NCBI GenBank assembly: GCA_934675045.1
Contig: CAKUPI010000135.1
Location: forward strand, 1 to 5,384
Direction of reading: 5' to 3'
Origin: an uncultured Eubacteriales bacterium
GTDB taxonomy: Bacteria > Bacillota > Clostridia > Oscillospirales > Butyricicoccaceae
DNA length: 5,384 bases
Within the stretch, counting starts at the first letter, position 1. Each line of letters starts with the position of its first letter. The translations under genes and the position numbers were made by a program. Shown here in pieces: positions 1,506 through 3,627 of the stretch. The notes under the pieces were generated by a model. That model was given only the letters and a program-made list of their open reading frames with translations, searched no databases and was not told the DNA's origin.

Positions 1506-1534
1506 TTGACTTTTTCTCTGTGTTGTGTTATCCT
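1506..1534 (+). promoter_or_regulatory. SigA-type promoter of the metNI leader
   Basis: TTGACT (1506-1511), a 17-bp spacer and TATCCT (1529-1534) form a good housekeeping promoter. Transcription would start near 1541, giving a leader of about 260 nt before metN. The leader contains the peptide ORF and the attenuator. No obvious operator palindrome overlaps it, which fits control inside the leader rather than at initiation (inference). Confidence 0.8.
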
Positions 1535-1571
1535 CGATGGCATGCAAGACAACGGGAAAGGAGACTGCCGC

Positions 1572-1688
1572 ATGAAAGGCTGCAAGCGCCGCAATCTGAT
1601 GTGCATGGACATGGCCGCGATGGCGATGCCCATGGCGCGCCCTGCCCGCAAGCCGCCCGAACCCCGCGGCAGTCTGTTTGCCGCATAG
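1572..1688 (+). CDS. Methionine-rich leader peptide (38 aa) of metNI
   Basis: A short ORF from ATG 1572 to TAG 1686-1688, starting MKGCKRRNLMCMDMAAMAMP. The start is chosen because AAAGGAGA (1557-1564) ends 7 nt before it; the in-frame ATG at 1542 lies upstream of that site and lacks one. Met is at residues 1, 10, 12, 14, 17, 19 and 21, so 6 of residues 10-21 are Met; Cys is at 4 and 11. It lies between the promoter and a strong terminator, upstream of the methionine transporter genes, in a different frame from metN. By analogy with trp and his leader peptides, its translation rate would report charged elongator Met-tRNA. The C-terminal part (RPARKPPEPRGSLFAA) has no Met and carries the RNA arms. 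The peptide itself probably has no function. A chance ORF is possible, but the Shine-Dalgarno, Met cluster and context together argue against it. Confidence 0.82.
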   Translation: MKGCKRRNLMCMDMAAMAMPMARPARKPPEPRGSLFAA

Positions 1689-1722
1689 CGGAACCGGCAT
1701 TGCACAAGGGCAGGAAGCGCGC
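1635..1722 (+). promoter_or_regulatory. Candidate antiterminator helix of the metNI leader
   Basis: The core is 13 bp: GCGCGC (1635-1640) with GCGCGC (1717-1722), then CCTGCCC (1641-1647) with GGGCAGG (1708-1714), interrupted only by a 2-nt AA bulge (1715-1716). It can continue inward with GCAA (1648-1651) and TTGC (1700-1703), then GCCG (1652-1655) and CGGC (1695-1698). The apical loop holds another 6-bp hairpin (1666-1671 with 1679-1684) next to the leader stop codon. It fully sequesters the terminator 5' arm. Confidence 0.65.
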
Positions 1723-1743
1723 TTCGGGCTTCCTGCCTTTTTT
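1709..1743 (+). terminator. Attenuator terminator upstream of metN
   Basis: A perfect 10-bp stem GGCAGGAAGC (1709-1718) with GCTTCCTGCC (1728-1737), a 9-nt loop, and six T residues (1738-1743). It begins 20 nt after the leader peptide stop codon and ends about 60 nt before metN, with no complete gene upstream other than the leader peptide. Its position inside the metNI transcript makes it a regulated terminator rather than an operon end. Confidence 0.88.
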
Positions 1744-1753
1744 CCTGCGTCAG

Positions 1754-1798
1754 GGCAGCGCGGCGCGGGCCGCCGCTGCCGCAAAAAAACAGGAGGTG
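1754..1798 (+). promoter_or_regulatory. GC-rich hairpin, A tract and metN ribosome binding site
   Basis: GGCAGCG (1754-1760) pairs with CGCTGCC (1774-1780). An A7 tract (1783-1789) follows, then AGGAGGTG (1791-1798), which sets the TTG start of metN at 1805. The hairpin leaves the Shine-Dalgarno free, so it may serve as a 5' stabiliser of the read-through transcript (inference). GGGCAG at 1753-1758 repeats the terminator 5' arm. Confidence 0.5.
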
Positions 1799-1804
1799 TC
1801 TCCT

Positions 1805-2863
1805 TTGATCGAGCTCAAAAACATCTGCAAGGCCTTTTCCTCGGCCTCGGGGCGCGTCGAGGCGGTGCGCGACGTCAGCCTGCACATCGGCGCCGGGGAG
1901 ATTTTCGGCATCATCGGCCTGTCGGGCGCCGGGAAATCGACGCTCGTCCAGTGCATCAACCTGCTTCAGCGGCCCGATTCCGGCACCGTGACGGTCGGCG
2001 GCTGCGAGCTGACCGCCGTCGGCCCGAGGGAGCTGCGCGCCAGACGCCGCGGCATCGGCATGATCTTCCAGCACTTCAACCTGATGTCCTCGCGCACCGT
2101 TTTGCAAAACGTCCTCTTCCCATTAAGGGGCAGCGGCATGACCCGGCAGCAGCAGCAGGCGCGCGCCGCCGAGCTTTTGGAGCTGGTCGGGCTGCCCGAC
2201 AAGGCGCAGGCCTACCCCTCGCAGCTGTCCGGCGGGCAAAAGCAGCGCGTCGCCATCGCGCGCGCTCTGGCCTTAAATCCAAGGGTGCTGCTGTGCGACG
2301 AGGCCACGTCGGCCCTCGACCCGCAGACGACCGGCTCCATTTTGCGGCTTCTGCGCGACCTCGGACGCCGTCTCGGGCTGACCATTGTCGTCATCACCCA
2401 CGAAATGGCCGTCGTCAAGGAAATCTGCGACCGCGTCGCCGTAATGCAAAACGGAAGAGTGGTCGAGCAGGGCGAGGTGTACCGCGTCTTTTCCAGCCCG
2501 CGGGAGGCCGTTACCCGGGAGCTGGTCGGCACGGCCACCCGCCTGCATCAGGTGCATGAGCTTTTGCAGGCCGGCTCCCCCGCCGTCGTACCGGGGCCGG
2601 ACGAGCTGCTGCTCGGTCTGACCTATACGGCGGACAATGTTTCGGACGCCATCATTTCGACGGCCTCGCGCCGCTTCGGCGTGGATTTGAGCATCATTTT
2701 CGGCAGCCTCGAGCTGGTGCAGAACACGCCGCTTGGCGGGCTGGTCGTCCTCGCCGGCGGCGATCGCGCGCGGATTGACGCGGCCGTCCGGTATCTGTTG
2801 GAAAAAAACGTGGGAGTGGAGGTAATTTCAGATGGCAGAGCTGCTGCAAAGGCTGGCGCCTAA
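1805..2863 (+). CDS. metN: Methionine ABC transporter ATP-binding protein MetN
   Basis: The ATPase that powers MetNI import of methionine (D-/L-Met and derivatives in the family) across the cytoplasmic membrane. From TTG 1805 it has 352 residues, close to the 343 of E. coli MetN. Walker A GLSGAGKST (38-46); Q-loop FQHFN (88-92), a MetN hallmark; signature LSGGQ (141-145); Walker B VLLCDEA (161-167); D-loop SALD (169-172); switch His199. The C-terminal NIL (ACT-like) domain, about 268-345, is where family members bind Met for transinhibition, so the protein is probably also feedback-controlled. The start follows AGGAGGTG at a good distance and begins MIELKNI as in homologs; the frame stays open back to 1370, but that extension has no family similarity. 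Expression is probably gated by the upstream leader. The last 32 bp overlap metI. No key residue is missing. Confidence 0.96.
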   Translation: MIELKNICKAFSSASGRVEAVRDVSLHIGAGEIFGIIGLSGAGKSTLVQCINLLQRPDSGTVTVGGCELTAVGPRELRARRRGIGMIFQHFNLMSSRTVLQNVLFPLRGSGMTRQQQQARAAELLELVGLPDKAQAYPSQLSGGQKQRVAIARALALNPRVLLCDEATSALDPQTTGSILRLLRDLGRRLGLTIVVITHEMAVVKEICDRVAVMQNGRVVEQGEVYRVFSSPREAVTRELVGTATRLHQVHELLQAGSPAVVPGPDELLLGLTYTADNVSDAIISTASRRFGVDLSIIFGSLELVQNTPLGGLVVLAGGDRARIDAAVRYLLEKNVGVEVISDGRAAAKAGA

Positions 2864-3512
2864 CGTCATGGGCAAGCTGCCCGAGCTGTGGGAGCGCTGC
2901 GGCCAGACCCTAATCATGCTTCTCGTTTCGGGCCTTATCTCTTTTCTGTTCGGAATGGCGCTCGGCGTTTTGCTGACGGTCACGCGCCGCGGCGGCATCC
3001 TGCCCAACGCCGTTCTTTTCACCGCGGCGGACAAGGCGGTCAACATTTTCCGCTCCGTCCCCTTTATCATTCTGCTCTTCGCCCTCATTCCGCTGACCCG
3101 CGCCGTCGCCGGCACGGCCATCGGCACCCGCGGCGCCATTCTGCCCCTCATTTTCGGCACCGTACCCTTCTTCAGCCGCCAGATCGAAAGCGCGCTTTCA
3201 GAGCTGCCCGACGGGCTGGTGCGGGCGGCGCAGTCGATGGGCGTCGGCCCGCTGGGCATCATCACCCGCGTCTACCTGCGCGAATGCATTCCCGGCATCG
3301 TCCGCGCCGCCACCATCACCTTTGTCAGCCTGGTCGGCCTGACGGCCATGGCCGGCGCCGTCGGCGGCGGCGGTCTGGGCGACTTCGCCATCCGCTACGG
3401 CTACCAGCGCAATCAAATGGACGTCACGTACGCAAGCGTGCTCATTCTGCTGCTGCTCGTCAGCGTCATTCAGTGGATAGGCAGGCTCGTCATCCGCAAA
3501 ACGACACATTGA
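2832..3512 (+). CDS. metI: Methionine ABC transporter permease MetI
   Basis: Membrane-spanning subunit that forms the methionine channel with MetN. It has 226 residues (E. coli 217). Hydrophobic segments at about 25-50, 72-92, 99-115, 155-180 and 200-219 fit the five-helix MetI fold. Family blocks: VNIFRSVPFIILL (70-82), the coupling EAA-type loop about 121-141 (with AAQSMG at 132-137), and AATITFVSLVGLTAMAGAVG (159-178) plus GGGLG (179-183). ATG 2832 is supported by GGAGG (2818-2822). It overlaps the metN end by 32 bp, so translation is probably coupled. A terminator follows right after the stop. No metQ gene for the substrate-binding lipoprotein follows; a MetQ from elsewhere must serve this permease, or the substrate is supplied differently. 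Confidence 0.96.
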   Translation: MAELLQRLAPNVMGKLPELWERCGQTLIMLLVSGLISFLFGMALGVLLTVTRRGGILPNAVLFTAADKAVNIFRSVPFIILLFALIPLTRAVAGTAIGTRGAILPLIFGTVPFFSRQIESALSELPDGLVRAAQSMGVGPLGIITRVYLRECIPGIVRAATITFVSLVGLTAMAGAVGGGGLGDFAIRYGYQRNQMDVTYASVLILLLLVSVIQWIGRLVIRKTTH

Positions 3513-3598: not shown

Positions 3599-3627
3599 TG
3601 TACAAAACGCCCGATCAATTGTATACT
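3599..3627 (+). promoter_or_regulatory. tetR-family gene promoter with an imperfect inverted repeat
   Basis: TGTACA (3599-3604), 17 bp, TATACT (3622-3627). The arms TGTACAA (3599-3605) and TTGTATA (3619-3625) form an inverted repeat matching at 6 of 7 positions across a 13-bp spacer, so the repeat covers both the -35 and -10. Such placement is typical of autorepressing TetR proteins, but the repeat is short and AT-rich. Promoter fairly likely; operator role is inference. Confidence 0.5.

Follow-up and report, generated by a model that had tools for sequence, protein, structure and literature searches.

Our analysis of a 5,384-nt stretch of DNA from an uncultured Eubacteriales bacterium (the window) indicates that positions 1541-1743 very probably act as a trp-type attenuator upstream of metNI, and comparison with related loci suggests that this leader belongs to what is likely a widespread, largely undescribed methionine form of trp-type attenuation. 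We propose that the leader ORF is translated and that, when charged tRNA-Met is scarce, the ribosome stalls at its Met codons. In a folding model that restricts pairing to RNA ahead of the ribosome (ahead-only), an A site on Met12, Met14 or Met17 is predicted to let positions 1634-1647 fold onto the 5' arm of the terminator, such that no terminator forms; the stalled ribosome would then permit read-through into the importer genes metNI. Once the A site has reached codon 19, and also when no ribosome is present, the same model predicts that the terminator forms. The features concerned are as follows.

1506-1534 (+): sigma-70-like promoter, TTGACT-17-TATCCT with TG
1555-1563 (+): Shine-Dalgarno of the leader ORF, GGAAAGGAG, with AGGAG at 1559-1563
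1572-1688 (+): leader peptide ORF, MKGCKRRNLMCMDMAAMAMPMARPARKPPEPRGSLFAA, 38 codons, ATG start
1599-1634 (+): Met-codon cluster and predicted stall zone, codons 10-21, with six ATG and one TGC
1634-1647 (+): predicted antiterminator arm (region 2), GGCGCGC plus CCTGCCC, duplex -29.1 kcal/mol
1708-1723 (+): region 3, the terminator 5' arm plus part of the loop, common to antiterminator and terminator
1708-1743 (+): intrinsic terminator with T6; fold of 1708-1738, -23.8 kcal/mol
1805-2863 (+): metN, ATPase of a methionine ABC transporter, carrying a NIL domain; TTG start, AGGAGG at 1791-1796
2832-3512 (+): metI, methionine ABC transporter permease, by best family match

By its sequence, the window has the layout of a ribosome-mediated attenuator: a leader ORF with a Shine-Dalgarno lies between a promoter and a structural gene, it contains a run of codons matching the downstream function (Met at residues 10, 12, 14, 17, 19 and 21, i.e. 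six in 12 residues), and an intrinsic terminator stands behind it. The initial annotation had listed a promoter, a Shine-Dalgarno, a 38-codon ORF with six Met in 12 residues, and a perfect 10-bp terminator with T6 followed by metNI, all of which we located; the interval that it gave, 1541-1804, corresponds to all of the transcribed leader as far as metN and not just to the ORF. The perfect 10-bp terminator stem is formed by GGCAGGAAGC and GCTTCCTGCC (1709-1718 and 1728-1737), with T6 at 1738-1743. These arms enclose a loop of 9 nt, outside the 3-8 nt accepted by a simple terminator scanner, which is why that scanner does not list this terminator. Promoter-like sites of the kind found at 1506-1534 occur seven times in the window, with 1.1 expected, and TTGACTTTTTC of the promoter region is preserved in loci L001, L002 and L003.

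The identity of metNI is assigned from best family matches that lie below curated cut-offs, together with the NIL domain: the best family for MetN is TIGR02314 (376 bits, under the cut-off of 499.7), and MetI fits best to MetI subfamily PRK10782 (201.5 bits, under the cut-off of 212). Downstream of metI, the window contains no metQ. A gene for a TetR-family regulator (PF00440, 3656-4315, +) directly follows metI and has a promoter-like site of its own at 3599-3627. There is also a tRNA gene (RF00005, 4388-4475, +), whose long variable arm suggests, by eye, the serine type. To the left of the leader are a large bacterial SRP RNA (RF01854, 146 bits, 1023-1289, -) and, beyond it, a reading frame that by eye resembles dnaX. 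DNA similar to the window was not found among phage records.

The initial annotation had foreseen an antiterminator, and one is predicted in the window between 1634-1647 and the terminator 5' arm: 1634-1640 are computed to pair with 1717-1723, and 1641-1647 with 1708-1714, giving a duplex of -29.1 kcal/mol, as compared with -23.8 kcal/mol for the terminator. In the ahead-only model, the probability of the terminator is 0.54 with the A site on Met10, 0.03 on Met12, 0.01 on Met14, 0.05 on Met17, 0.98 on Met19, and 0.99 from Met21 through to the stop codon; the values for Met12 and Met14 stay at or below 0.05 at every assumed footprint edge from +9 to +16, and those for Met10, Met17 and Met19 vary with the assumed edge. 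For ribosome-free window RNA the terminator probability is 0.97-0.98. The equilibrium switch of the window exceeds that of dinucleotide shuffles, 0 of 200 of which reach the observed mean. When pairing across the ribosome is permitted, the terminator probability is 0.09 for Met10, 0.17 for Met12, 0.11 for Met14, 0.86 for Met17, 0.98-0.99 for Met19 and Met21, 0.29-0.32 for codons 35-38, and 0.98 at the stop codon. Region 2 sits about 40 nt upstream of the leader stop codon, such that a ribosome at the stop codon does not cover it; for a fully read leader, the antiterminator is blocked in the ahead-only model, and with cross-ribosome pairing the duplex of regions 2 and 3 can re-form at the last codons. 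Computationally, the window has a predicted antiterminator that is mutually exclusive with the terminator and is released when a ribosome sits on the control codons.

Our first scan for related loci used MetI, with one genome per species and the best 80 of 182 loci, and later searches were made by family, order and class. In the three closest relatives among those best 80 of 182 loci (MetI 86-88% identical; record titles uncultured Clostridia, uncultured Clostridium and Candidatus Ventrousia), the layout is retained and the leader peptides differ (MYRFSARMMCMCAGMAVMPMPVMRCAHFSSVLSGALPASH, MTVYRRYAAMCMAMDMARMAMPMLFPVRLPPACDSLCSA and MRRFSARMMCMCTDMAVMPMSEMRCAHFSSVLSGALPASH). The next relative (L004, MetI 71% identical) has no leader at that locus, and a second metNI copy in the same genome does have one (L088); no leader precedes L090, a more distant second metNI-like copy carried by G002. 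Further carriers include Sedimentibacter, among them S. saalensis and S. hydroxybenzoicus (L005, L010). For a systematic count we used 154 records, in 148 of which metN adjoins metI, giving 130 distinct loci, and considered ORFs of 8-70 residues that start at most 400 nt from metN, with a Met cluster defined as at least 4 Met in the 14 residues after the start. A Met-cluster ORF is present in 25 of the 130 distinct metN-metI loci (25 of 782 ORFs pass), and a terminator lies near the leader stop codon in 24 of these 25; some terminator is present in 54 of the 105 loci that have no Met cluster. The initial annotation had named relatives that keep the terminator and lack the Met-rich ORF as evidence that would refute its reading; the association of Met clusters with terminators does not refute it, and together with the predicted antiterminator in the window supports the trp-type attenuation that it had proposed.

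Two weaker cases (L063 and L113) were added to the 25 to give a curated set of 27 leaders, which span 15 to 41 residues in length; 26 have a terminator 12-66 nt past the stop codon, and one, L009, has no terminator. The true start of the L114 leader is probably upstream of the start used here, by its likeness to L010. As a chance background, we took 4834 short ATG ORFs (15-60 aa, both strands) from the window and the first 80 loci. A density of 5 or more internal Met in 13 residues is reached by just 19, of which 11 are leaders at one syntenic place and 6 are one near-identical antisense frame in Bifidobacterium loci. A profile search with alignment A2 in the 25 leader-bearing genomes, at E up to 10, recovered the metNI leader in 12 and gave one extra match, in G098, with internal stops; it missed known leaders (e.g. 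those of G001, G003 and G005) as well as the metQ leaders described below, and therefore does not bound the size of the regulon. Two loci from the order of G094, a genome whose own record title is Spirochaetales bacterium, have short ORFs before metN in which the start is followed by two Met and two Cys (L140, MRKNTYMCMCLTLPNRD; L143, MRKNTYMCMCLILPNRD); these are possibly reduced leaders. At a second metNIQ locus in G091 (L173), we set aside a Met-rich frame because it is contained within another gene. That locus (G091:C1:134900-140200) is a second Sedimentibacter metNIQ set, by eye behind a ThiF-like gene, with a SAM riboswitch upstream at G091:C1:139026-139128.

Pairing was compared across 26 loci, L009 being omitted for its absent terminator. 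With the ribosome on the Met cluster the terminator 5' arm pairs upstream, and it does so less with the ribosome at the stop codon; in 20 of 26 loci this difference is larger than the shuffle mean, and it is singly below 0.05 in nine (Fisher 2e-8). Among the 21 loci that remain when close kin (L003, L007, L114, L091 and L144) are left out, it is above the shuffle mean in 15 and below 0.05 in eight (9e-7). The six loci that do not exceed the shuffle mean are L040, L063, L072, L095, L113 and L147. The drop in the terminator at equilibrium is likewise significant for the set (4e-6 for 26 loci, 1e-5 for the 21, and 1e-4 without the window), with only 8 of 26 loci singly below 0.05 of shuffles. Two close relatives of the window, L001 and L003, show the opposite trend, with 200/200 and 198/200 shuffles at or below the observed value; in these two the antiterminator would have to win kinetically. 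Relative to the window, their terminator arms have two compensatory changes from G-C to A-U pairs. In 23 of 26 loci, the position in the ORF at which arm pairing falls to half could be located; it lies past the last Met in 17 of these, and in the window after five of the six Met. The modelled switch is thus significant for the 26 loci as a set, not for each locus.

Conservation of the leaders is concentrated in their Met codons. Across the 27 leaders, ATG occurs 189 times in frame, as against 23 and 4 times in the other two frames, and in alignment A2, which has 25 leaders, the start Met alone is invariant. In three close-kin pairs, Met was kept at 8/8, 8/9 and 11/12 positions, and non-Met residues changed at 5/32, 3/27 and 2/20, counts that are too small to prove selection. 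When 22 less related leaders are compared with other short ORFs, Met is enriched 7.5-fold and Cys 2.3-fold; Met was a selection criterion in this comparison and Cys was not. Of 62 Cys residues, 39 touch a Met; shuffling the peptides gives 25.0 (sd 3.7), with as high a count in 2 of 2000 shuffles. Cys codons by frame (62, 117 and 37) are uninformative, because ATGC and ATGT make out-of-frame TGC and TGT. The Cys enrichment is an addition to the initial annotation, as is a second target, the unlinked metQ gene described below.

Cys codons beside the Met codons may supply a cysteine input, and a variant that overlaps with trp-type methionine attenuation is that interleaved Cys codons (MCM, MMCMC) make the leader respond jointly to charged tRNA-Cys and tRNA-Met. 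Such joint sensing of sulfur amino acids, which we regard as possible but doubtful, would fit an enrichment of Cys that was not selected for and its adjacency to Met; it would also fit the leader of L088, the second metNI-like copy of G004, which has seven Cys and four Met. This leader, on the reverse strand from about 3296 down to 3220, is GTG-started and has a strong terminator, and its composition suggests a cysteine-leaning version. However, Cys is missing from the leaders of L005 and L007, whereas Met is in all 27 curated leaders, and ATGTGC may have been retained for RNA pairing. A different reading of the same peptides is that the nascent chain itself arrests the ribosome and senses free methionine or SAM, not charged tRNA. 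Arrest peptides need fixed residues, and these leaders share little beyond Met and some Cys, with a mean column identity of 23% and lengths that range from 15 to 41, so we consider arrest improbable, even though leader peptides that sense a free metabolite do exist, as described for TnaC and tryptophan (PMC8429421).

Two further explanations were considered. The terminator might be controlled by a small-molecule riboswitch that has gone unrecognised, or by a protein, with the Met-rich ORF incidental; a terminator with an alternative pairing would suit any attenuator, but the clades share in-frame Met codons while the sequences of their arms differ. At E up to 10, Rfam gives only miRNA-type, Brucella sRNA and COG2908 matches in the window's leader, all far below gathering scores, with no match to the SAM aptamer (RF00162 and its clan) at 1541-1804 and none to the T-box (RF00230) anywhere in the window. 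The initial annotation had named such matches as a check on attenuation; they are likewise absent before metN in 26 leader-bearing relatives at Rfam gathering scores. We judge an unrecognised riboswitch or a protein-controlled terminator exceedingly improbable. The ORF might instead encode a functional small protein, with the terminator merely lowering downstream expression. Peptides rich in Met and Cys can bind metals, and a metal binder would be one such protein. Against this stand the absence of a Pfam or NCBIfam match to the window's peptide, the variation of non-Met residues between clades, the terminator between ORF and metN in 24 of 25 loci, the pairing of upstream leader RNA with the terminator arm, and the occurrence of similar leaders before unlinked metQ, which together make a small protein highly improbable.

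MetQ (PF03180) was matched in all 14 genomes searched. In the three closest genomes (G001, G002 and G003), the best metQ is on a contig other than that of the leader-bearing metNI, and lower-scoring metQ matches adjoin a more distant metNI-like copy in each. The best metQ has a Shine-Dalgarno, a Met-rich ORF and a terminator upstream in all three (MLKQCSTMKERMCMDAAMPMPMMRAAQ... in G001; GTG-started MLKQCRRMKERMWLDMAMPMPTMRFAH... in G002; MLKQCSTMKERMCMDMAMPMPMMRAAQ... in G003), suggesting that the two parts of the importer, metNI and unlinked metQ, would be co-regulated in these genomes. The 5' terminator arm of these metQ leaders is predicted to pair upstream with a probability of 0.6-0.9 when the ribosome is on the Met cluster, dropping just after it, and at equilibrium the terminator remains high in two of the three, values that come without a shuffle control. 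Two genomes in the order of G094 also have Met-rich leaders before a metQ that is distant from metNI, with no U-run terminator by eye. A second hairpin of these terminator-less leaders lies near the metQ Shine-Dalgarno, and control there may thus be translational. By eye, a common ATGCCC-N4-GGGCATA hairpin occurs in L171 (about 734-810), L172 (about 715-785) and L009 (2820-2882), where it spans the last Met and the stop codon in terminator-less leaders of this order. The second metQ of G205 (L170), behind another permease gene, has no Met-rich leader.

The place before metN that is occupied by a Met-rich leader in some loci is occupied by other RNA sensors in some of their relatives. Rfam searches of 34 leader-less loci, applied at gathering scores, placed a T-box (L118-L121, L129, L132 and L139) or a SAM riboswitch (L151 and L152) before metN in nine. 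The codon at the specifier's place in the T-box model is AUG in four of four T-boxes aligned. The leader-bearing genomes themselves have T-box matches in 25 of 25 searched (23 over the cut-off) and SAM riboswitch matches in 16 of 25 (14 over the cut-off); the leader therefore does not substitute for an absent toolkit.

Methionine is an awkward case for attenuation, because leaders also start with Met, and methionine starvation should slow initiation of the leader too, which counts against the proposed mechanism. Since AUG both starts and paces the leader, we put forward a band-pass response in which metNI would be on at moderate methionine shortage and off when deep starvation stops initiation, the off-state following from the predicted termination of ribosome-free window RNA. 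The full proposal, which we offer tentatively and do not consider probable as a whole, is that Clostridia and a spirochaete order have a widespread attenuator with Met and Cys codons on metNI and unlinked metQ, which swaps with tRNA-Met T-boxes and SAM riboswitches and has this band-pass behaviour. If the leaders work as predicted, methionine, and perhaps cysteine, would join the amino acids that control attenuation, in lineages where SAM riboswitches, T-boxes or repressors have been credited with methionine control, and three RNA sensors would exchange places before one operon. For annotation, a Met-rich short ORF with a terminator would flag methionine-uptake genes, including unlinked metQ.

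Textbook attenuation concerns trp, his, leu, ilv, thr and phe, and the trp-type ribosome-mediated transcription attenuators are the trpL, hisL, thrL, ilv and leu leaders of Enterobacteria. The Met leaders resemble these in having a short ORF with a Shine-Dalgarno and a run of the regulating codon, and a predicted antiterminator and a terminator that share one arm, before genes for the cognate amino acid. They differ in that the control codon AUG also starts the leader, in that the target is an importer and not a biosynthetic operon, in their occurrence in Clostridia and in the order with a record titled Spirochaetales, and, for the window, in the position of region 2 inside the ORF, well upstream of the stop codon. 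The initial annotation had suggested that a methionine version before metNI may be undescribed. This probably holds in large part, with the limit that a 29-aa leader, metL, was listed before metNIQ of Streptomyces lividans TK24 from RNA-seq data in 2021 (PMC8079986). Like the leaders described here, metL is a short ORF that precedes this transporter and has Met and Cys codons towards its end (CMCRRMC); unlike them, it has just two Met after the start, its transcript is leaderless and, according to its authors, lacks a typical Rho-independent terminator, and the accessible part of that account gives no comparative or pairing evidence (PMC8079986). Our search of the open-access literature, with most subscription papers outside its scope, gave no other Met leader before metNIQ, and a 2005 survey of Actinobacteria, in its accessible part, reports no conserved RNA structure before methionine operons (PMC1262725).

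A related system is the tRNA-Met T-box, as described before the methionine transporter in the met operon of Lactococcus lactis (PMC7058034); a 2010 terminator survey also shows a T-box before a methionine transporter in Lactobacillus sakei (PMC2965389). The tRNA-Met T-box has in common with the Met leader the kind of gene, the probable signal (tRNA-Met charging) and the output (terminator or read-through), but T-box RNA itself binds tRNA and translation is unnecessary. The SAM-I (S-box) riboswitch RF00162, which likewise occupies the slot before metN in the two loci named above, senses SAM via a conserved aptamer to which the window's leader has no match. The His leader peptides described before hisS/hisZ in Bacilli (Naville and Gautheret 2010, PMC2965389) are, like the Met leader, translated leaders in Firmicutes whose relatives carry a T-box; unlike it, they use His codons and precede synthetase-family genes. 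Lastly, uORFC-8-2, a predicted cysteine leader before cysS in Rhodobacterales, has tandem codons for a sulfur amino acid and an attenuation layout, as do the Met leaders, and differs from them in using Cys only, in belonging to alpha-proteobacteria and in preceding a synthetase gene (PMC8632094).
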